Below, in pieces: positions 1-11,471 of a stretch of 64,000 bases of DNA (the stretch's first letter is position 1; every line of letters begins with the position of its first letter). The notes beneath the pieces are model-generated. The model had not been told where the DNA came from. It did no database searches and worked only from the letters and a program-made list of their open reading frames with translations. Position numbers and translations under genes: made by a program. The stretch lies in the NCBI GenBank assembly GCA_029262375.1, contig JAJCZM010000044.1:186001-250000 (forward strand). The letters are read 5' to 3'. Origin of the DNA: Deltaproteobacteria bacterium (GTDB lineage Bacteria; Desulfobacterota; Binatia; UBA1149; SPBQ01).

Positions 1-172
1 CGATTGGGACGCCATGCAATTGCTCGGGGGGACCAGGTAGCTCGTCCCCGCGATTCTGAGCAAGCCGAGCAGCGTTGGCACTTCCTGCGTACCGACCTGC
101 CAGGTCTGACTTCCGTGGACTGGCCCACCCCTCGAAGTCGATCCGGTCATAGGCCTCCGACACTTGGTTCAT
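1..172 (-). CDS. partial hypothetical protein cut by the left edge
   Basis: The frame starts at an ATG (complement of 172..170) and runs off the left edge without a stop, so only about 57 codons are visible. The N-terminus begins MNQVSEAYDRIDFEGW, which I do not recognise. It starts 11 bases after the stop of the zinc-finger gene on the same strand. That gene in turn overlaps the excisionase-like gene, so all three probably form one leftward operon of the integrated element. In elements of this layout the next gene is often a replication protein or integrase, but nothing visible proves either. Confidence 0.5.
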   Translation of the reverse strand, partial: MNQVSEAYDRIDFEGWASPRKSDLAGRYAGSANAARLAQNRGDELPGPPEQLHGVPI

Positions 173-183
173 ATCGTTGCTGT

Positions 184-708
184 TCACAGCTGCACCCCCA
201 ACACACGGAGCACATATCGCCGACGCTTCTGATCCAGAGAGCTCCCGCCGATCTCATCGACCGCACGCTCGAGGCTACGAACTAGATTAAGCAGGGTAGC
301 GCGCTCCCCCATATCGCTCGCGTCAAGAAGCTCGTTGCGCTTTTCTCGTCGGAGAATCGCGAGAAACACCTGCAATTCTGCCATCTCCCGGTCCATCCGA
401 CTGAGCGTCCGGGTAGCGGTCGATGCCTGAGGTCGCTGCCAGCGACTAGGACGTCCGCGTCGAGCTGAATCGAGACCGAGACTCGAAAGAATCTCATGCC
501 AGGCGCACTGTCTTGCGAAACAGTGGAGTAGTGGAACTCCGGAGCTTCCCAGACGCAGAACAAGCGAACTCAGATTGCTCCCGCCATGAGCAGTGCATCG
601 ACCGCGCACCGAGCCATCGGCCCGTCGACTCGCACCGACTCGGAACATTGCTTCCTCAATCTCTGCGAAGGTAGGTGTACCCGCAACCAGATCTCTGTAC
701 GCGGTCAC
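184..708 (-). CDS. CHC2-like primase-type zinc-finger protein of a mobile element
   Basis: A 174-residue protein if read from the GTG at 708..706. That GTG overlaps the TGA of the upstream HTH gene as GTGA, the usual sign of translational coupling, so I prefer it to an ATG further upstream at 771. Residues 38-79 resemble the zinc finger of phage and plasmid primases: C38-x2-H41, then a short beta-rich stretch, then HCFARQC (C63, C68), followed by a helix ending SLGL. The second Cys pair is spaced one residue wider than the usual phage form. The rest is a charged helical tail; no TOPRIM or helicase domain is present, so it cannot be a full primase. It probably binds DNA or assists replication of the element. 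Confidence 0.6.
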   Translation of the reverse strand: MTAYRDLVAGTPTFAEIEEAMFRVGASRRADGSVRGRCTAHGGSNLSSLVLRLGSSGVPLLHCFARQCAWHEILSSLGLDSARRGRPSRWQRPQASTATRTLSRMDREMAELQVFLAILRREKRNELLDASDMGERATLLNLVRSLERAVDEIGGSSLDQKRRRYVLRVLGVQL

Positions 709-923
709 AACTGACCGCCTCGGCCAGGTTCCCGACCATCTTTGGCGGACGCGGCGCGCGTCGCTATCCACTCCACTAGCGCGTGGCGGGGGACTCTCAC
801 CGCTCGACCATCTCGGATTGAGGGCAGTTCGCCGCTCGCTACGAGTTCGTAAACCCTTGCCCGGCTGAGACCAAGACTATCGGCGACCTCCGGGATTCTC
901 AGAAGTAGTTTTTCTGCTGTCAT
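705..923 (-). CDS. excisionase-like helix-turn-helix DNA-binding protein
   Basis: A 72-residue protein with the compact MerR/excisionase-type winged helix (HTH_17). Residues 8-45 read as a helix-turn-helix (IPEVADSLGLSRARVYELV) followed by a wing (GELPSIRDGRAVRVPRHALVEWI). The family includes Xis recombination directionality factors and small element repressors. A strong ribosome site (GGAGGAAG) sits just before the ATG at 923..921. It is the first gene of a leftward operon and its stop overlaps the next gene by four bases. The divergent zinc-ribbon gene starts about 114 bases away, so this protein may regulate that shared promoter region. Excisionase versus repressor cannot be decided from sequence alone. 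Confidence 0.7.
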   Translation of the reverse strand: MTAEKLLLRIPEVADSLGLSRARVYELVASGELPSIRDGRAVRVPRHALVEWIATRAASAKDGREPGRGGQL

Positions 924-1036
924 TGGACTTCCTCCTCTCTCTATTCAGGTCCGTGACCATCGAGTATCGAGTGGTCGTTGTGCGTACCCTAGAGCCGTCA
1001 CTGGTCCGGTCGCCAGGATCAGAATATGACGTCGCT

Positions 1037-1990
1037 ATGACGCGACCACGTGGGCCAGTTCCGTTGTGGGAAATCGAGGGCGAGCTCTGGTCGACGCCCG
1101 GAACGGTCGAGAGGGTCCACGATGCGGGTGGCTGGTTCGTTCCTCACAAAGTGTGGGCCGAAGCGGACACTGTCTATTGGCGCGGAACTGACGATTGGCC
1201 TCCAAGACTTGGTAGCTTCGTGGCTACAGGCAAACCGTCCCTAGAGAGATTCATGGGTCTTGAATCCGCGTCAGCCTCACGCATCGCGAGCTTTGCGCGA
1301 AAGTGGGGCGTCATGCTGATGGGTCAGCAGGGAGTTCCCGTCCGCCGGCGAGGCAATGATTCCGCAGACCCGTTTCTGCAGAGTGCGACAACACGAGTTG
1401 CAATCGCTGATTTTGAGCTTCTGACCGACGATCATCGGCTTTATATGGAGCCGGCGGTCCACTGGCGGACACTTGCGAAAAGAGCTCGTTGTGTACTGAA
1501 CCTCGCCACTCGACTGCGCCAAGAGAGACCCGGAACTCGCGAAGACTGGGAGGGGGCAGTTGTCTATGGCGTGAGCGAGGAGGACGTTGAGCAACTGGGG
1601 TCGACCGCCTGCGCGAGAATCACGTCAAGCCTTCCCTCGATCACCGACTGCCCGATGGATGTTCAGCGCGCATTGCTGATAGGCCTGCTAGAAGACTGGA
1701 TCGACCGCGGCGCTGTACTCCCATCAATGACGTGGGTCAGAAGCGGACCAGAATTTGGTGTGAAGAGTTTCACTTTGTTCGGTGCAATTGGCCTCCAGCT
1801 CTCGCTAGCAGTCGGCAAACTGGACGGGTACGCAACCTGCTGCGGATGCGGTACGGCGTATGCCCCATCCCGCAAACCCCGAGCAGACCAGCGCCGTTAC
1901 TGCGGCGATTGCCGAGAGGAGGGCATCCCACAACGCCACGCCGCCCAACAGTATCGACTACGCCGGAAACGACCCGATGATCGCAGCTAG
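1037..1990 (+). CDS. hypothetical protein with C-terminal zinc ribbon
   Basis: I chose the ATG at 1037 (317 residues). An upstream TTG at 923 would overlap the start codon of the divergent HTH gene. Most of the protein is an unrecognised mixed alpha/beta region rich in Trp and acidic residues. The last 50 residues form a probable zinc ribbon: CCGCG, then YCGDC, ending in a very basic tail (QYRLRRKRPDDRS). Tails of this kind occur in CGNR-type and other actinobacterial or phage DNA-binding proteins. It lies between the excisionase-like operon and the Gabija genes, so it is cargo or a regulator of the element. I cannot name a function. Confidence 0.6.
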   Translation: MTRPRGPVPLWEIEGELWSTPGTVERVHDAGGWFVPHKVWAEADTVYWRGTDDWPPRLGSFVATGKPSLERFMGLESASASRIASFARKWGVMLMGQQGVPVRRRGNDSADPFLQSATTRVAIADFELLTDDHRLYMEPAVHWRTLAKRARCVLNLATRLRQERPGTREDWEGAVVYGVSEEDVEQLGSTACARITSSLPSITDCPMDVQRALLIGLLEDWIDRGAVLPSMTWVRSGPEFGVKSFTLFGAIGLQLSLAVGKLDGYATCCGCGTAYAPSRKPRADQRRYCGDCREEGIPQRHAAQQYRLRRKRPDDRS

Positions 1991-2197: not shown

Positions 2198-4000
2198 ATG
2201 TCCACAGGACTGATGATTGTAGAGGTGAGAATCCGCAACTTTCGCTGTCTGCGGAGTGTTGACCTGCGTCTCGGCCAACAGACGATTCTTGTGGGGGAGA
2301 ACAATGCTGGGAAGACTAGCGCACTTCACGCTCTGAATGTCGCCCTTGGTACCGGAGCGCGCAGGTCATCGGACTCCGACATTTATCTTGCGCCTACCGA
2401 GCAGCGTGCGCCCCGCGATCGCAAGGCCATAATAGACATTCTTCTCAGGCCTACCGACGATGACGGTAAGCTCGTTGACGAGTTTCCCGGCAGCGGACAA
2501 TGGCTCGCTCATTTCGGAAACGCGGTATCGCAGGATTCCGCGGGAGCCGATCAGGTCGTTCTACGAGCCGAGCTCGCATGGAGTTCTCAGCGGAGCGAAT
2601 TTGAGCTGTCGCGATGTTTCTTAACCGAGTGGAAACAGGACGGCGACGAAATCGATAAAGTGACTCCTGTCGTCGGCGCAGCGGTCAGTCGCTCTGTAAT
2701 CGAGGCGATTTCTCTCTCATACATCGATGCCAACCGAGATATCGTCGCAGAGTTCCGCAGCGGTGGTACCTATTGGCGGAGGCTAGTAGCCAATCTTGGG
2801 CTCAGCGACAAACTGATTTCCGACATCGAAGGTCAACTCGATGAACTGAACAAGAAACTGTTGGCAGGCAGCGACGTTCTCACACACCTTGAGACGCATC
2901 TTGCAGATCTTTTTCAAGGCGCGACTGCTGGCTCTCATTCGGTATCCATCGCGCCAGTACAGCCGCACCTGCGTGATCTAAGTCGCGGAGTTGAGGCGCT
3001 GATCTCAACCGAGGGCGGCCCATCGTTCCCACTTGAGGCGCAAGGAATGGGTACGCGTAGCTTGGCCGCCCTGCTCACGTTCCGCGCTTTCATCGATTGG
3101 CGAGTAAAAACGCTCAAAGCTGCCGCACTACATCCGGTGGTAGCGATTGAGGAGCCGGAAGCCCACCTTCAACCACAGTCGCAGCGCGCGGTTTTCGAGC
3201 AGCTCAAGGGACTTCCGGGACAGTGGATAGTTAGCACACATTCGCCGTACATCTGCAGTCAAGGCGATCTGGGTGACTACCGAGTGTTCTTCAAGGAGGG
3301 CGGCGAAACTTCGGTCCGTGAGCTCAACCCTGAACTTGCCGAACTCGATGCTGAGGACGTCAGGAAAATCCGCCGCCAAGTGCTAAATACGAGAGGCGAG
3401 ATGTTGTTCTCGCGGGGACTCGTACTCTTCGAAGGCGAGACTGAGGAACAGGCCATCCCAGAGTTCTGCGCACGACACTTCAAGAAGCACCCTTTCGTAC
3501 TCGGACTAACACTTATAGGAGTCGGCGGATCGGGTGGCTATGGCCCATTTGTCAGACTCGCGAAGACGTTCGGCATCCCATGGTGGATCTTTAGCGACGG
3601 AGAGGACGACGCTGTTAGTAACGTCGATACAGCGCTCGCTAAACTCGACGAAAAGCCAGTCGCCGCTAACCCGAGGGTTGTGAAGCTGCCAGACGGGAAG
3701 GACTTCGAGTCTTATATCTGCGACGAAGGTCGACATGAATCAATTATCGAAGCGCTGCTAATAGAAGAAGCCAGCACTCCCCAACACGAAGCGTCTCTCC
3801 GCAAAAAGTGGCGCGACGATGATGATCCAGTTTCTAGTCTCATAGAGAAACTACAAAACGGGAAGACGAGATACGCCCCGCTGGTCGTGAGCGCTCTCGA
3901 GAAAGAAGAAATGCCAGAAAGGCTTCACTCGCTGTTTACACGTATCGCTAACGAGCTAGGCTATGTCGATAGTGAGCCATCATCCAATGCGCCTATCTAA
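2198..4000 (+). CDS. gajA: GajA-like OLD-family ATPase/TOPRIM endonuclease (Gabija defence)
   Basis: A 600-residue protein with the two-part layout of class 2 OLD nucleases. The N-terminal ABC-type ATPase has a Walker A at 33-40 (GENNAGKT), a Walker B near 314-320 (VAIEEPEAH) and a switch His near 345 (IVSTHSPYI). The C-terminal TOPRIM domain shows LFEGETEEQ near 410, the acidic SDGEDD near 465 and a Lys in LPDGKDFE near 497. GajA of Bacillus cereus VD045 has this architecture and a similar length. GajA nicks DNA and is held off by nucleotide in uninfected cells. The next gene is a UvrD-like helicase overlapping its 3' end, which is the Gabija arrangement. Its codons use more A/T at third positions than the surrounding chromosome, consistent with transfer. 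A start at 2213 (MIVEVRIRNF) is also possible. Confidence 0.87.
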   Translation: MSTGLMIVEVRIRNFRCLRSVDLRLGQQTILVGENNAGKTSALHALNVALGTGARRSSDSDIYLAPTEQRAPRDRKAIIDILLRPTDDDGKLVDEFPGSGQWLAHFGNAVSQDSAGADQVVLRAELAWSSQRSEFELSRCFLTEWKQDGDEIDKVTPVVGAAVSRSVIEAISLSYIDANRDIVAEFRSGGTYWRRLVANLGLSDKLISDIEGQLDELNKKLLAGSDVLTHLETHLADLFQGATAGSHSVSIAPVQPHLRDLSRGVEALISTEGGPSFPLEAQGMGTRSLAALLTFRAFIDWRVKTLKAAALHPVVAIEEPEAHLQPQSQRAVFEQLKGLPGQWIVSTHSPYICSQGDLGDYRVFFKEGGETSVRELNPELAELDAEDVRKIRRQVLNTRGEMLFSRGLVLFEGETEEQAIPEFCARHFKKHPFVLGLTLIGVGGSGGYGPFVRLAKTFGIPWWIFSDGEDDAVSNVDTALAKLDEKPVAANPRVVKLPDGKDFESYICDEGRHESIIEALLIEEASTPQHEASLRKKWRDDDDPVSSLIEKLQNGKTRYAPLVVSALEKEEMPERLHSLFTRIANELGYVDSEPSSNAPI

Positions 4001-5864
4001 TAAACAGCGTCGAATTGTCGAGCACGACGAGGGCGCACTGCTTGTAGTCGCCGGCCCCGGGGCTGGAAAGACTCGCGTCCTAACCGAGCGAGTTAGAAGA
4101 CTTCTGAGCAAGAAGGACGCCAACTATCGCGTACTCGCGTTGACGTTCACTAATAAGGCCGCAAGCGAGATGAAGGACCGCTTGAAGAACAACGAAAGCG
4201 TATCGCAGCGCTCCTTTATTGGAACGCTCCATGCGTTTTGCATGGAAGTGCTAGCGAACCGTGGGCGACCCGTCGGCATCGAGGGGCTGCCGAACATATT
4301 CGAGTCATTCCAAGACCGGAGAGCACTCCTACGTGAGGCCATCGATCTAGACGCAGAGCTGAGATTCGCGCTTGCAGAGCGAGGCGACCATCGAGCGCAA
4401 GAGAGCACACTATACCGCTGGATGCAGGATATCTCAGAGTGGAAGCGCAATCTCACTCTCCCCTCGATGCTCACAAAAGACTTTGATCGGCGCATCTACG
4501 AAGCCTACAACGCGCAGCTGGCGGCATCCGGCGGGGTAGACTTCGACGACCTCCTTCTATTGACCTACAGGCTCTTTGAAGAGAATCCGCAGGCGGCCCG
4601 ATTCTACCGCCGACAGTATCGGTATATCTGTATTGACGAAGCGCAAGATCTAAACGAGGCACAGTATCGTGTACTCTGTGCACTCTGCACGGATCAACAT
4701 CGGAACGTCATGCTAGTCGGTGACCCCAAACAAGCGATCTACACGTGGAACGGGGCAGACCCGAAATACCTCGACCTTTTCGTAGAGGACTTTGAGGCTG
4801 AGACGACGGAACTGAATGAGAACTTTCGTAGCTCTCGGGCCGTAGTTCATGCCGCGCAAGTGCTGGAAAGCAACTACGAGGTCGCGGGTCAGCTACCGAT
4901 ACAAGGGGACGTACTTCTTCAGCCTTGTGATGATGAGGAGGCCGAAGCCGAGTTCGTAATTGAGACGATCGAAGAGCTTCAAGAAAACGGGCATCAAGAC
5001 ATCGAAGGCCCCATAGACCTCGGCCGAATAGCCGTGCTGGGCCGCAATCGCTTCGTGTTCGACGCCTTGTTGCGGGAGCTCGAGCGAGTCGGGATTCCAT
5101 ACTACCAAAAGATGTCTGCTGCTTCGCACGAGTTCGTGTCTGACGTCGTGCAAGAGTTCCAGCTAGCCCTTCGGATCGTAGCGAACCCGCATGATCGTCT
5201 TCACCTAGGCATGCTTTGTTCGCGGTGGAAGCTACCATCTGAGGTCGAAGGCCTAAGAGCGCGCTTTCGCGATGAAGAGCCGCGCACGGTTCTACACGAG
5301 GCCGCGAAGACCGCCCGCGGCGGCAATGCGGCAGTAGTGGCAGAGGCAATCATTGCGGCCGTTGACGACGACTCGAACGTTATTCTACCGAACGGCCTAG
5401 CGGTGTTGGTGGGAGACTCGACCTCTCGTCCGATAGAGGAACGCGAGTTTATTGCGCGCGACATCCAGGAGTGGGAAGACGCGTGGAAGAACTACCTTCG
5501 CTCCACAACTGGCGGGTCGCAACAACTGGCGAGTTTTCTCAGTCACGTGGCGCTGGGAACAACCGAGCAGGCCTCTAGAGAGGGACTCGCTCTGATAACC
5601 GTGCACTCCTCAAAGGGAATGGAGTTCGACGTAGTATTCGTTATTGGCATGTCGCGGGGTACGTTCCCAGACTATCGTGCGAAAAGTCCAAAGGAGTTGG
5701 CGGAGGAGCGGCGAAACGCGTTTGTGGCCTGTACTCGCTCTCAGCGATTGCTCTACGTCTCGTATCCACGCGTAAAGCTGATGCCGTGGGGCGATAGCAG
5801 ATCCGTCTCGCCATCGCCGTTCTTCACCGAGCTTGCCGATGCGTTTGGCAACACCGCAGAATAG
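3987..5864 (+). CDS. gajB: GajB-like UvrD/Rep superfamily 1 helicase (Gabija defence)
   Basis: The start at 3987 (MRLSNKQRRIV) gives 625 residues and a 14-base overlap with gajA. An ATG at 3963 would add eight residues. SF1A helicase motifs are complete: Q-motif near Q7, Walker A at 22-29 (AGPGAGKT), TFTNKAASEM, DEAQD at 217-221, VGDPKQAIYTWNGA, ENFRSS, VHSSKGMEFD near 539-548 and FVACTRSQRLLYV near 580. In Gabija the helicase partner works with GajA in one complex and responds to DNA ends or nucleotide depletion. This copy is longer than the 494-residue GajB of B. cereus VD045 and carries the 2A/2B-type regions of a full UvrD. A housekeeping UvrD/PcrA is less likely because those run well over 650 residues and do not overlap an OLD gene. 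Confidence 0.85.
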   Translation: MRLSNKQRRIVEHDEGALLVVAGPGAGKTRVLTERVRRLLSKKDANYRVLALTFTNKAASEMKDRLKNNESVSQRSFIGTLHAFCMEVLANRGRPVGIEGLPNIFESFQDRRALLREAIDLDAELRFALAERGDHRAQESTLYRWMQDISEWKRNLTLPSMLTKDFDRRIYEAYNAQLAASGGVDFDDLLLLTYRLFEENPQAARFYRRQYRYICIDEAQDLNEAQYRVLCALCTDQHRNVMLVGDPKQAIYTWNGADPKYLDLFVEDFEAETTELNENFRSSRAVVHAAQVLESNYEVAGQLPIQGDVLLQPCDDEEAEAEFVIETIEELQENGHQDIEGPIDLGRIAVLGRNRFVFDALLRELERVGIPYYQKMSAASHEFVSDVVQEFQLALRIVANPHDRLHLGMLCSRWKLPSEVEGLRARFRDEEPRTVLHEAAKTARGGNAAVVAEAIIAAVDDDSNVILPNGLAVLVGDSTSRPIEEREFIARDIQEWEDAWKNYLRSTTGGSQQLASFLSHVALGTTEQASREGLALITVHSSKGMEFDVVFVIGMSRGTFPDYRAKSPKELAEERRNAFVACTRSQRLLYVSYPRVKLMPWGDSRSVSPSPFFTELADAFGNTAE

Positions 5865-6226
5865 CCACCTAGCTCTATCCGCACGATATCCCGCGAACCA
5901 ACCTAGAATCTCGCGTGGCTACCTGCTGCCACGCGCAAATAGCTGACTGGCATCAAGAGTCGATACCCTGCGTGTTGCTGGCGACAGTGGATCGTAGGCT
6001 GCTTGCTCAAGAGAATAATCGACGCCCTGCTATTCAGCCACGCGGCTCTTCAACTGCTGCAGTATCGCTTCAGTCCGTCTGCGGACAGGCGCGTCTCCCG
6101 TTGGAACGCGAGGACTTGGCCACCGTGCCGAGAGGACTGAAAATCCACGTGTCGGTGGTTCGATTCCGCCCCTGGGCACCACCTTCAACGCGCGCAAACT
6201 CGCCCCAGCTTGCCTCTCGCCGACTG
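5865..6226. other. gene-free right end of the integrated element
   Basis: No coding frame here looks real. The small rightward frame at 5915-6343 reads through the tRNA fragment and has no domain or codon pattern. The stretch holds the gajB 3' flank, the tRNA-Phe 3' fragment at 6134-6181 and 45 bases of chromosome before the stop of the next gene. No clear terminator hairpin was seen. Confidence 0.6.
6134..6181 (+). repeat. 3' fragment of tRNA-Phe, probable att site of the element
   Basis: These 48 bases match the 3' part of a bacterial tRNA-Phe. The anticodon loop CTGAAAA has anticodon GAA at 6139-6141. A variable loop follows, then a T-arm with stem GGTGG/CCGCC around TTCGATT, then the acceptor strand CCTGGGC, discriminator A and encoded CCA at 6179-6181. 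The partner 5' acceptor strand (GCCCAGG) and a D-arm are absent upstream, so this is not a whole gene. Integrases that target tRNA genes leave this scar at one end of the element. Its orientation predicts an intact tRNA-Phe and integrase gene to the left of the window. Confidence 0.85.
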
Positions 6227-8482
6227 TCATTGGAGACGTGCCTTAAGAAGCGTGTCGGTCTGCTTGATCACGGATTGAGGAGGGAACACCGCTTCCCACG
6301 ATCCGCCGCTAGTGACGTCCACGCGGACTGTCATCGGTGCTAGGAGGGACTGGAGTTGGGGGAGCGGAATGTTCGCGCCCTTGGCTTTGATGATGATCTT
6401 AGCCTTCCCGTCTGCGCCGGCCTTGAGAGTCATCTTCGACAGGAAAGAGTTCGGCTGAGTCTGGTTTCGGTCTTTGTACACGAAGCCGTTCTTCGTCGCC
6501 TTCCAACATGGATCGTTGCCGCAGACGGCACCGCCGGCGGCACTGGTGCACATGAAAGGAAGCTGCTGCCCGGATGATTGGTCGGACAGACATACGATGT
6601 ACGTGTCCTGCGTCTCGGGGTTTCCGAAGTCCGGCAAGGCGGTCATCTCTCCCAGCCACTTAAATGAGAGCCTACGCTTGTCCAGATCGTCGAGCCGCTC
6701 CTTGAGTAGTAACAGTGGGCGAAGGCCCTCGAGCGGACCGTGACAGCCGGGCTCGGGACTCGGCGCGCAGCCGACCGAGGCTTGGCATGAACGACACGCA
6801 GTGCAGACCGGTGCGGACTCGGTCGTCTCGCACACTCCCGCGATGCAACTCTCGTCGCCGTTGCACAACGTGCTGTCGCTACAGCTCGTCCCGTCGGGAG
6901 CGTCGCCGCCGCCCGCGCACACTGTTGCCAGACAGGTCTCCCCCACGGTACACGGGTCCGCGTCGTCGCAGGCGCCGCCATCGTCCGCCGTGCACACGGA
7001 AGGCTCACCGGCACAGGCGAAACACTGTTCGACGACACATGCTCCGGCGCAGCCGTCGCCATCGGCACGGTTGCCGTCATCGCATTCTTCGATGCCATTG
7101 AGGACCGCGTTGCCACACTCGAGCGAGCAATCCGCCGCACAGCCATCCTCGCCGACAACGTTCCCGTCGTCGCACTCCTCGGGACCCTCCATCAAGAAGT
7201 CGCCACAGAAGCCGTCGGCGATCGCGTGAACGATGTCGAAGTCGCCACCCGGCGGTGCGCTAGCCCAAGCCAGCACCCAGCGCCCCAGTCCGTTGGTAGC
7301 CAACAACGGCCCGAAACCAGCTGCGGCGATATCCTGTGTCGCAGTCCAGGAGACGCCGTCATCGAGCGAGCGAGCCGTGGAGATTCCGGTCGGAGTGTCC
7401 CAGGCGGCCAGCCAACGGTCGGATCCGTCGTACGCCAGTTGCGGTACTCGATCGCTGGCACCGGTAGGCCCATCGGTGGTTGCCGTTGCGTTGATCACGA
7501 GCGGCGCGGACCAGGTCACGCCATCGTCCGTCGAGCGGGAAACAAAGATATCGCTATCGCAGCCGGTCGTGCCGCCGGCCGATTCGGTATCCGACCAGAT
7601 AGCCAGCAGCGTATCGTCGCCTCGCACGAGTTCGGGCGCGCTCGCTATTCCGGAGGAACAGACGTCCGGTGAGCTGCTCGTATTGATCGTTACCGCGCTG
7701 CTCCAGGTGTCGCCGTCGTCGGTGGAGCGTGAGACTAGTATCTCGCCGTCCGACGACGAGGCACCGTATCTCACCCAAACGAGAACCCAGTCATCACCGA
7801 CTACAACGAGTTGAGGTGCACTGTCGCGGGTCCCCGCGGGGCGCGTCACGCCATCGATGAAGATGTGGTCGGTCCAGTGCAGGCCGGAATCCGTCGAGCG
7901 TGCGACGACAACGTACGGGTCGGTACTCGTGTCGGTTACGTAGTGTTCCCAGGTAACGAGCCAAGTGCCTTCGGAGTCCGTGGCGACATCGGGACGCTTC
8001 GCAATGCCGGAGCCGTAGACGAGAGTGGAGTCCACAGGAAGCGGCAACGACCAAATCGCGCCGTCGTTGCTCGAGTAGGAAGCGAGCAAACGGGACCCGG
8101 GTGTGAAGAAGTAAGAATGCCATATGGCCATCCATCCACCGGCACCATCGGTGGCAATGGATGTGAATTCATCGGGAGTTTGACCGTCGGCAATCGCCGA
8201 TACATGGATGAGAAAGGGAGCACCCCAAGTCAGACCGCCATCCATAGATCGCGAGATCAGGATGTCCTGATCGGGGCCGGCCGGCCCGCCGAACTCTTCG
8301 GTGCTCTCCCATGCAGCGACCCAGACTGCACCGTCCGTCGCGAGAGTTACTCCCGTGTCGTTTCCGCTGTCGGTCGTTGCGTTGGTGTTGAGGAAGCTCG
8401 CCGCCCCGAACTGCTGCGCGTTGGCGGCGCCCGAAAGACAAGCGAAGAGAATGACAAAGACGAGTGCGAAGTAAGATCCCAT
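6227..8482 (-). CDS. secreted sialidase-fold (Asp-box) protein with Cys-rich repeats
   Basis: A 751-residue exported protein. I start it at the ATG 8482..8480, five bases after GGAGGGG; the longer frame to 8509 has no ribosome site. Residues 1-22 are a signal peptide ending AANAQ. Residues about 25-420 carry at least six Asp-box motifs of the form S-x-D-x-G-x-T-W (SMDGGLTW, STDSGLHW, STDDGDTW, STDDGVTW, SLDDGVSW), the signature of a BNR/sialidase beta-propeller. Two ECDDGN Cys-rich repeats (DUF4215 type) and further Cys-rich modules follow. The last ~150 residues (TYIVCLSD, PCWKATKNGFVYKD, KAKGANIPLPQL) match the tail of two other secreted proteins in this window. Catalytic sialidase residues are not evident, so binding or a structural role is more likely. 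Confidence 0.8.
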   Translation of the reverse strand: MGSYFALVFVILFACLSGAANAQQFGAASFLNTNATTDSGNDTGVTLATDGAVWVAAWESTEEFGGPAGPDQDILISRSMDGGLTWGAPFLIHVSAIADGQTPDEFTSIATDGAGGWMAIWHSYFFTPGSRLLASYSSNDGAIWSLPLPVDSTLVYGSGIAKRPDVATDSEGTWLVTWEHYVTDTSTDPYVVVARSTDSGLHWTDHIFIDGVTRPAGTRDSAPQLVVVGDDWVLVWVRYGASSSDGEILVSRSTDDGDTWSSAVTINTSSSPDVCSSGIASAPELVRGDDTLLAIWSDTESAGGTTGCDSDIFVSRSTDDGVTWSAPLVINATATTDGPTGASDRVPQLAYDGSDRWLAAWDTPTGISTARSLDDGVSWTATQDIAAAGFGPLLATNGLGRWVLAWASAPPGGDFDIVHAIADGFCGDFLMEGPEECDDGNVVGEDGCAADCSLECGNAVLNGIEECDDGNRADGDGCAGACVVEQCFACAGEPSVCTADDGGACDDADPCTVGETCLATVCAGGGDAPDGTSCSDSTLCNGDESCIAGVCETTESAPVCTACRSCQASVGCAPSPEPGCHGPLEGLRPLLLLKERLDDLDKRRLSFKWLGEMTALPDFGNPETQDTYIVCLSDQSSGQQLPFMCTSAAGGAVCGNDPCWKATKNGFVYKDRNQTQPNSFLSKMTLKAGADGKAKIIIKAKGANIPLPQLQSLLAPMTVRVDVTSGGSWEAVFPPQSVIKQTDTLLKARLQ

Positions 8483-8732
8483 TGCGCCCCTCCGACACAC
8501 GATGATCACCTAGAGCGCCACCTATACCAAGCCGTCACGGTCAATAGTACGCGTTGCCGTGCTGTAGCGTAGCCGGCGCCTGCCCCCGTATGGGCCGACG
8601 TACGACACCGAATCGCAGTTTCCGTCCCCACTGGCCTCGGCCATGCCGCCCCGAAATACTGCGGGGCAACAACAGCGACTTCGTCTGCAGCAGACATTCT
8701 CGAGACGGGGCGATGTCGCGTGAGGGAACACC

Positions 8733-11471
8733 ATGGCCAGACCTGGTATTGTCGTCTTCCTCTCCCACCTATTGATGGGAACTGCGGTTGCTCCCGCATT
8801 CGCTCAGCAACACGCAACTGCAATCTTTACAACCGGCCTGGCCGACGCACATGTCGGTAGCGAACTGGTTACGAGTTCACCGCCTGGGCTATCTGGCAAA
8901 ACTTTCTTCTTCTTCCACACGCCGAGAGTGAGCCCGGACGGATCCGCGTTCGGCTTTCTATCGTTCGTCACACCGGGCGATGGCGATGAAGACGAGGTCC
9001 TGGTGATCGTCAAATCTCCAGAGGCGGCGCTACGCGTCGGCGCCGCGCTGACCGCCGGCGATTCCATCAGTGCGGTCGTCGAGGGCACGACCGGATTCTC
9101 CGACGCGTCTGGAGACGTCGTGCGCTCGATGGATACTAAATTCGGATTGAACGACAACGGCTGCTACGCGGTGAGCGCCCGAGGCAATCCGTCGAACGAC
9201 GACGTCATTGCGAAAGGCTGCGAAGGCGACCCGCTCGCCGTGATGGCGCGCGAGGGCGAGGAGGTTCCCAATCTCGGCGGCCCTACTTACTTGAGTTCAG
9301 CGCGCGAACCTCAACTAGACAACAACGGCGTCGTGTACTTTGGGCAGGACACGAGCGAGTCTCCCGGCAACCGCTCCGTATTCCAGACAACGAACGGCGC
9401 CGACACCGTGCGGCTCGTACAAGAAACGGTGACCGAGTTCGGCGGGGCGAGCGGCGGCGGAACGAGAATTTTCGAGAGCCTCGACAACGAGTTCAGCCAA
9501 TCCCGCGGCGGACTGCAGGTCTCCGGCGATGGGCAACAGATTCTGCTTCGCGGCGACCTCACTGAGGATTTCGCCAGCGACGACTTCGCGGGTGTACTGG
9601 CACCGACGCCAACCATCGTTCACCAAGAAGCCACAGTCGTCGATCCGGTCTTTGCCGCAACGAGTGTCGCCAACAGCCCGACGGCGAGCTACCTGTCGGG
9701 CGACGGTCGCTGGTTCTTGCGTGGGACCAATACGGACGCCGCCCATTGGATCGTCGGCGAGAACGGCGTCGTTGCGAAAACGGGAGACGAGATCATCGCG
9801 GGCACCAACGAACACTGGACGACCTTCTTCGCCTTTCACGCGGGCGCCGACGGCGACTTCGTGATCGGCGGCACCAGCGACAGCACCGACGAGCCTCTAC
9901 TTGTCTACTATCCGCCGGCGTCGCCCCCGAACGTTCGATCCGGACGGCGGGCCTCGCTCCCGATCGAGACCGCCATCGTCGTCGCACGCAAGGATGACGA
10001 CATCGATCTCGACGGTGACGGACAGATCACGGCGCAGGATGCCCGCATCGACGCGTTCGGCAGCGACGACGCCGTCATCGTCAAGCGCAACGTTGTCAAC
10101 GACCCGCTCGCGGAGGTGATTGCGTTCATCGTATTCCAAGCGACCACCTGCACGGGCACTTGCGAGGGCAGCATGAGCACGACCGGTACCGTAATCGCAG
10201 AGTACCCGGCAACCATGGAAGTCGAATGTAGCGAAGACACCGACTGCGAAGCGCAGGAGACCTGCGAAAAAGGAACCTGTGTACCGATCTGCGGCAACGG
10301 CAGATTCGACACCGGCGAAGGCTGCGATGACGGCAATCTGACACCCGGCGATGGGTGTGACGGCGCGTGCAGCGTGGAATCCTGCTTCTTCTGCAACGTA
10401 GTGGTCGAGCCGTCGCAGTGCTCGGTCAACGTCGACGACGATTGCAGCACCGACGACGATCGCTGTACGTCACTCGGCACGTGCAACGCCAACGCAGATT
10501 GCGTGGGCGAGGCCCCTATCGATTGCTCGGATCTCGACGACGGCCAATGCCTCGTCGGCCAGTGTGATCCAGCCGACGGCCAATGCCGGCCCGTGTTCAA
10601 TGAGGGCGCCGAATGCGACGACGGCGACGACTGCACGCTGGGCGACGTGTGTAGCGACGCCGCCTGCAACGGGGTCCCGAAAGACTGCAGCCAATTCGAC
10701 GATGCCGACAACTGCACGGTCGGAGTATGCCACCACGAGTTTACCGACGGCGACTGCGAACCCGGCAACGTCGCCGAAGGCACCCCGTGCGACGACGGCG
10801 ACGCCTGCACGGTGGACGATCGTTGCGACGACGAAATCGTGAGCGAGTGCCTCGGGCTTCCGCGTGACTGTTCACAGCTGGATAGCCAGTGCGCGCGCGG
10901 GGTCTGTCAAGCGTCGAACGGCGAATGTATCGCAGAAAACGTCGTCGTTTCGTGCGACGACGGACTACCCTGCACGCTCGAGGATGTCTGCGTCAACGGC
11001 GTTTGTAGCGGTCTCTCGGTGTGCGAAGGCGAGTGTGAGATTTGCACGGTTGACGGTTGCGTACGCCACTGCGGCGATCCCGTGAATCCGGGCGGCTTCA
11101 GCTTCCCCGGTCAAACGGTGGGCGCCCCGAGTGGTGCGCGTATCATCACGGCCGCCGATGCACTGCACTCGTTGCAGGCCGCGGTCGGACTCGTACCGTG
11201 CCCGCTGTGCGTGTGTGACGTGAACGACGACGAGACCGTGACGGCCTCCGATGCGTTGGCGATTCTTCGCCGAGCGGTCGGCCTACCGAGTGAGAACTTT
11301 TGCCCGATGGATAGCCCGACGCCGAGCACGACGACGACGTTGGCGAGCCCGCCTACCACAATGCCTGCCGGACCTGCCTGCATCGACGCCGTGCCGCCAA
11401 CCTGTGACGGCACCTGCGAGCAGGGGCAGTGTGTCGGGATCGACGCGGTCTGTTTCTGCCAGGGCCTCTGA
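8733..11471 (+). CDS. large secreted Cys-rich protein with dockerin-like repeats
   Basis: A 912-residue exported protein. The signal peptide spans about residues 1-25 (ending PAFAQQ). The N-terminal ~450 residues contain repeated elements of the type LNDNGCYAV and LDNNGVVYF, as in beta-propeller-like surface proteins. Then come an ECDDGN-like repeat (GCDDGNLTPGDGCDGACS) and a run of Cys-rich modules of the form CDDGDxCTxxDxC. Near residues 805-850 is a dockerin-like double repeat (ITAADALHSLQAAVGL and TASDALAILRRAVGL) separated by CPLCVCD. Unlike its relatives here, it continues past this into a Thr-rich linker and one more Cys cluster. It is transcribed divergently from the Asp-box protein across a 250-base gap. 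Confidence 0.78.
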   Translation: MARPGIVVFLSHLLMGTAVAPAFAQQHATAIFTTGLADAHVGSELVTSSPPGLSGKTFFFFHTPRVSPDGSAFGFLSFVTPGDGDEDEVLVIVKSPEAALRVGAALTAGDSISAVVEGTTGFSDASGDVVRSMDTKFGLNDNGCYAVSARGNPSNDDVIAKGCEGDPLAVMAREGEEVPNLGGPTYLSSAREPQLDNNGVVYFGQDTSESPGNRSVFQTTNGADTVRLVQETVTEFGGASGGGTRIFESLDNEFSQSRGGLQVSGDGQQILLRGDLTEDFASDDFAGVLAPTPTIVHQEATVVDPVFAATSVANSPTASYLSGDGRWFLRGTNTDAAHWIVGENGVVAKTGDEIIAGTNEHWTTFFAFHAGADGDFVIGGTSDSTDEPLLVYYPPASPPNVRSGRRASLPIETAIVVARKDDDIDLDGDGQITAQDARIDAFGSDDAVIVKRNVVNDPLAEVIAFIVFQATTCTGTCEGSMSTTGTVIAEYPATMEVECSEDTDCEAQETCEKGTCVPICGNGRFDTGEGCDDGNLTPGDGCDGACSVESCFFCNVVVEPSQCSVNVDDDCSTDDDRCTSLGTCNANADCVGEAPIDCSDLDDGQCLVGQCDPADGQCRPVFNEGAECDDGDDCTLGDVCSDAACNGVPKDCSQFDDADNCTVGVCHHEFTDGDCEPGNVAEGTPCDDGDACTVDDRCDDEIVSECLGLPRDCSQLDSQCARGVCQASNGECIAENVVVSCDDGLPCTLEDVCVNGVCSGLSVCEGECEICTVDGCVRHCGDPVNPGGFSFPGQTVGAPSGARIITAADALHSLQAAVGLVPCPLCVCDVNDDETVTASDALAILRRAVGLPSENFCPMDSPTPSTTTTLASPPTTMPAGPACIDAVPPTCDGTCEQGQCVGIDAVCFCQGL

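Follow-up and report, generated by a model that had tools for sequence, protein, structure and literature searches.

The partial tRNA-Phe sequence at 6134-6182 of the window (the whole stretch of 64,000 nucleotides analysed here, C44:186001-250000, from a draft genome of 4.8 Mb that is 87% complete) is almost certainly the attR of an 8.55 kb integrative element, which carries a Gabija cargo and was inserted in a tRNA-Phe gene by a tyrosine integrase. Taken alone the fragment is ordinary, since attR sites of tRNA-targeted islands are well known; it fixes the borders of a compact Gabija-carrying element to the base and leads to its integrase. Less ordinary than the attR itself are the membership of this integrase in a clade devoid of Arg-I and the supply of its stop codon by the host tRNA D-arm. 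The right end of the element is organised as follows.

6033-6133, minus strand: P arm, flanking the attR core on the element side; the integrase frame is predicted to extend into it for 34 codons in the circular form, to a stop at 6030-6032
6134-6182, plus strand: attR core, repeating tRNA-Phe positions 29-76 and one further base exactly (49 bp), putatively the displaced host tRNA 3' end
6183-6226, no strand: beginning of the host sequence to the right of attR, 6182 being the last base of the repeat

Direct reading of window 6134-6182 gives GGACTGAAAATCCACGTGTCGGTGGTTCGATTCCGCCCCTGGGCACCAC, in which GGACTGAAAATCC is the anticodon arm (GAA) and is followed by the variable loop, the T-arm and CCTGGGC-A-CCA. 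The fragment thus begins in the anticodon arm, at position 29, and runs through variable loop, T-arm and 3' acceptor strand to the discriminator base and CCA, with one extra base; the first-pass annotation, which had seen an orphan tRNA-Phe 3' half with CCA at 6134-6181, was correct to one base. ARAGORN built no tRNA at the fragment or elsewhere in the window, and against Rfam RF00005 the fragment scored 17.5 bits (gathering cut-off, 29), lacking the D-arm and having a mispaired acceptor. A matching intact tRNA-Phe(GAA) is present in the same genome at C44:183553-183628, 2.4 kb left of the window. Orphan and intact copies are exactly identical over 49 bp and form direct repeats on the same strand, 8,553 bp apart, the chance expectation for such a repeat being about 1e-21 or less. 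This exact copy of the 3' part of the intact gene supports the att duplication that had been proposed from the fragment alone. The GAGGA/TCCAC mismatch suspected of marking the core edge is also real, as alignment to the intact tRNA-Phe gives A at the fragment and T in the intact gene at tRNA position 28, immediately beyond the core towards the element.

A partial tRNA without D-arm would likewise be left if a tRNA gene had decayed into a pseudogene or part of one had been duplicated at random, with no involvement of integration. Such an origin is very improbable, however, since the 49 bp are identical and display no decay, the break falls in the anticodon arm, where other integrations at tRNA-Phe have it too, and the intact tRNA copy is abutted by an integrase. 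A second tRNA-Phe, located on the 3.2 kb contig C55, was ruled out as the source of the fragment by its different anticodon stem. On this contig (G000:C55:1-3159, L043), which is probably a foreign contaminant of the draft genome, the tRNA precedes a different tyrosine integrase gene of the same orientation, with RNase E/G-like and YacG-like neighbours recognised by eye.

The integration reading had allowed the place of the integrase to be foretold from the orientation of the fragment, and the gene was indeed found where expected, directly adjoining the intact tRNA at the other end of the element, outside the window. From the intact tRNA rightwards, the gene order of the element is as follows.

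C44:183564-184766, minus strand: tyrosine integrase (PF00589, 1.8e-14; PHROG integrase, 1.2e-40)
C44:184592-184957: small HTH-like gene, overlapping the integrase start and conserved in relatives
1-187, minus strand: start of an AAA_25 (RepA/DnaB-like) helicase gene, continuing left of the window to C44:184964
184-771, minus strand: 195-aa protein in which a primase-like zinc motif (C..HGG...LHC...C) was seen by eye, without HMM support
705-923, minus strand: excisionase-family HTH, HTH_17/AlpA-like (NCBIfam excise, 8.3e-13; PF12728, 3.7e-14; PHROG 66)
923-1990, plus strand: 355-aa protein bearing CxxC pairs in its C-terminal part, without family match
2198-4000, plus strand: gajA, OLD-family ATPase with TOPRIM domain (PADLOC GajA, 6.6e-175; Pfam AAA_15 and OLD-like_TOPRIM)
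3963-5864, plus strand: gajB, UvrD-like helicase (PADLOC GajB, 3.3e-223; Pfam UvrD)

About 94% of the interval between the two tRNA copies is coding, and the GC3 of the element genes (0.56-0.63) differs from that of the flanking host genes (0.68-0.76). The genes predicted in the 8.5 kb element include none for a relaxase or secretion, and no capsid or terminase genes were identified in it with Pfam and PHROG. The adjacent gajA and gajB overlap by 38 bp and, like described Gabija systems (PMC8136825, PMC10781630), associate an OLD nuclease carrying a TOPRIM domain with a UvrD-like helicase, both with strong profile matches, although the putative GajA and GajB are distant in sequence from the solved proteins. 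The cargo is assigned by sequence to the Gabija nuclease-helicase anti-phage systems, and would act in defence. As for the 355-aa protein encoded upstream of gajA, which had no match in Pfam, PHROG, PADLOC or NCBIfam and one weak partial match among 395 genomes, it is possibly a Gabija accessory or else a gene of the element.

In its tRNA site, integrase, defence cargo and lack of capsid and conjugation genes, the element resembles the tRNA-integrated defence islands at hotspots of the E. coli pan-genome (PMC10121019), which have an integrase and no known transfer genes, but it resides in another host phylum, also carries an AAA_25 helicase, and has an integrase of a different clade whose gene ends inside the tRNA. 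The combination of an integrase at a tRNA, an AlpA-like regulator, a replication-type ATPase and defence cargo also recalls P4-like satellites, but no P4-specific genes were identified in the present element. As regards phage satellites of the PICI/P4-like kind, packaging genes were looked for and neither a capsid nor a terminase gene was seen, the 355-aa protein being one product without assigned function.

Regarding the integration itself, the tyrosine integrase would have recombined the attP of the element with the anticodon-arm part of the tRNA gene, an identical 3' half supplied by the element keeping the tRNA whole at attL and the original 3' half of the host being displaced to the far end, where it would now be the orphan in the window. 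Excision would rejoin the two copies, probably with the aid of one of the two small HTH proteins. As in tRNA-targeted islands, a direct repeat flanks the element, an integrase lies near one end and an empty site exists in relatives. The genes left of the tRNA (prmA, rsmE and a gshB-like gene) are syntenic before tRNA-Phe in other genomes of the order, and in two of these, G003 and G006, which are distant relatives only, tRNA-Phe stands beside the same left-hand genes with no repeat, representing the empty site. The right flank of attR is lineage-specific, and the exact attB could therefore be taken from no close relative. In this flank, window 6227-11471 encodes two large neighbouring proteins whose repeats are of the DUF4215/BNR type, and similar repeat proteins are encoded close to tRNA-Phe in both G009 and G010.

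These last two genomes, of the same order, have their own independent insertions at tRNA-Phe, with the displaced 3' piece 6.1 and 7.5 kb away, respectively. In G009 the displaced copy keeps CCA and the in-place tRNA reads CACCTTC. Because CCA is found only in the displaced copy, the in-place 3' end in G009 comes from the element and the orphan is the original of the host; by analogy, the window element would have the same polarity, its orphan being the host 3' end. The insertion units are L116 (G009:C15, 8586-14725, about 6.1 kb), in which the integrase is shortened, and L117 (G010:C18, 6229-13779, about 7.5 kb). In another genome (L153), a related integrase adjoins tRNA-Phe, and an exact 48-bp repeat lies 10,755 bp away.

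The 3' end of the integrase gene lies inside the intact tRNA, its frame running antisense through the T-arm and the anticodon arm to a TGA formed by the host D-arm. Only the residues after about position 380 of 400 are encoded in the tRNA, the catalytic Tyr being at 327. The integrase gene itself crosses attP, so that the integrated form ends on the TGA of the host tRNA and the circular form would read on into the P arm. The same overlap was encountered by genome scan in L050 (tRNA-Phe) and L049 (tRNA-Asn), and a search of 195 genomes from the phylum of L050 added further cases. Wherever a tRNA adjoins an integrase gene with an open 3' end, in 11 relatives in all (12 with the present integrase), both the overlap and the frame are the same; these 11 are eight Phe, two Asn and one Lys cases that include L050 and L049 as L133 and L134 and comprise some partial genes. 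Such conservation of frame despite the changed target probably results from descent with the same crossover register, not from independent invention. L148, a decayed member, has stops ahead of the tRNA, and L140-L142 have neither a tRNA nor such a tail. At the corresponding loci (L169, L168 and L167, respectively), the integrases have Asn at Arg-I and a short C-terminus, and a tRNA is absent nearby. A control for the overlap with strong integrase matches in 39 relatives was uninformative, as most were XerC/D-like by eye with no tRNA nearby, and in the L050 assembly only one intact tRNA copy was found, without a second one.

Alteration of a reading-frame end by integration is shared with the pleolipovirus attP located in a coding sequence (PMC7911831) and with archaeal suicidal integrases (PMC8371274). 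Here, on the other hand, only the tail past the catalytic Tyr would be exchanged and the integrase remains unsplit, which places it outside the archaeal suicidal type, where att lies within the gene and integration splits the enzyme.

The P arm contains at 6115-6122 CTTGGCCA, a motif common to the P arms of related elements. Its shared form TGGCCAAG is found at window 6115-6122 and in the P arms of L153 (where TGGCCGAA is present), L159 and L160, about 20 bp outside the att core, and is a candidate arm site for the integrase or an accessory protein. Integration could also be imagined to act as a switch, in which a functional C-terminal tail encoded by the P arm of the circular form is swapped for the short host-tRNA tail. 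In three elements with full-length integrases, the predicted circular tails indeed stay open over 22-47 codons, and W-P-x-P-like residues are common to those of the window element, G435 and G468. Such a switch is nevertheless quite unlikely: the likeness of the tails follows from the shared DNA motif, the tail was modelled with low confidence, and in G527 TGGCCAAG is present although a stop codon precedes it in the integrase frame, as expected of a DNA site and not of a selected peptide. Because the motif occurs outside an open frame in another element, no tail switch is claimed, and a conserved alternative integrase tail was rejected, the DNA motif explaining the likeness.

Among solved structures, the best match to the integrase profile was PDB 5c6k (entry titled Integrase), which we take to be the P2 phage integrase. 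The box I region aligns without gaps (TGARWGEAAR in 5c6k, TSACWGETER in the profile) and differs by a Cys at Arg-I; the box II His is also replaced by Asn in the present integrase. Twelve relatives at 48-58% identity to the present integrase form a clade with it (n = 13), which a maximum-likelihood tree places on one side of a branch with 99/98 support. At the Arg-I position these 13 proteins have C in eight, N in three (the closely related L140-L142), E in L136 and S in L139. Their sisters L145 and L150 (36-40% identity) retain Arg-I (GARRSE and GARLGE). The catalytic Tyr, Arg-II, Lys and His-III (ERVY, LRR, GTK, GH) are kept in 13/13, and His-I is Asn in the clade and also in the sisters. 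The absence of Arg-I is read from the alignment, and its meaning we infer: by homology, the integrase would be a variant tyrosine recombinase missing a residue described as nearly invariant in this family, changes of which leave Cre or Flp inactive or strongly impaired on natural DNA (PMC4499138).

Ratios of dN/dS of 0.08-0.40 in five pairs indicate purifying selection on the clade integrases. Together with the exact att repeats of the two elements with full-length integrases (49 bp in the window element, 48 bp in G435), these values of at most 0.40 suggest that the enzymes are working ones. The clade may recombine site-specifically at tRNA genes in the absence of Arg-I, with the phosphate contact taken over by another residue, a proposal we consider evenly balanced. 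Arg236, which follows the catalytic Lys by four positions, is a candidate for this compensation, since the residue is Arg in 13/13 clade members and Ala in both Arg-I-bearing sisters, a correlation only; some outgroups also have Arg or Lys at this position, and arginines 126 and 325 are specific to the clade as well. The predicted structure of the integrase (mean pLDDT of 51.9) was too poor for active-site placement.

The element could instead be fixed, its integrase being dead or dependent on help and the insertion having been done in trans by another integrase, as the near invariance of Arg-I, the crippled Arg-I mutants of Cre and Flp on natural DNA (PMC4499138) and the Asn at His-I would allow. 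This is rather unlikely in view of the four catalytic residues retained throughout the clade and the low dN/dS; moreover, most clade frames are full length and the tRNA-adjacent members adjoin their own att site. No report of a natural integrase lacking Arg-I was found in the literature searched, although such reports may still exist. If the clade is active without this residue, the catalytic set thought to define tyrosine recombinases would be more flexible than believed, and a natural series with known att sites is at hand, with Arg in the sisters and Cys, Glu, Ser and Asn in the clade.

The integrase family was detected in 17/195 genomes of the phylum of L050 (E <= 1e-25) and, among 395 genomes drawn from the window's phylum, in the window's own genome only (E <= 1e-30), a comparison in which the cut-offs differ, the window's phylum is only sampled and the two phyla are taken as different. 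Because the relatives are mostly in another phylum, the simplest reading suggests that the element came to this lineage by cross-phylum transfer. No close relatives of the integrase were found in viral contigs and none in plasmids; four distant ones occur in phages. None of the other elements examined yielded GajA, and cargo varies among related elements: in G435 a DUF3987 protein accompanies a serine resolvase and a RuvC-like gene lies close to the element end, and G453 combines a resolvase with a DUF5906 protein and an IS66 transposase.
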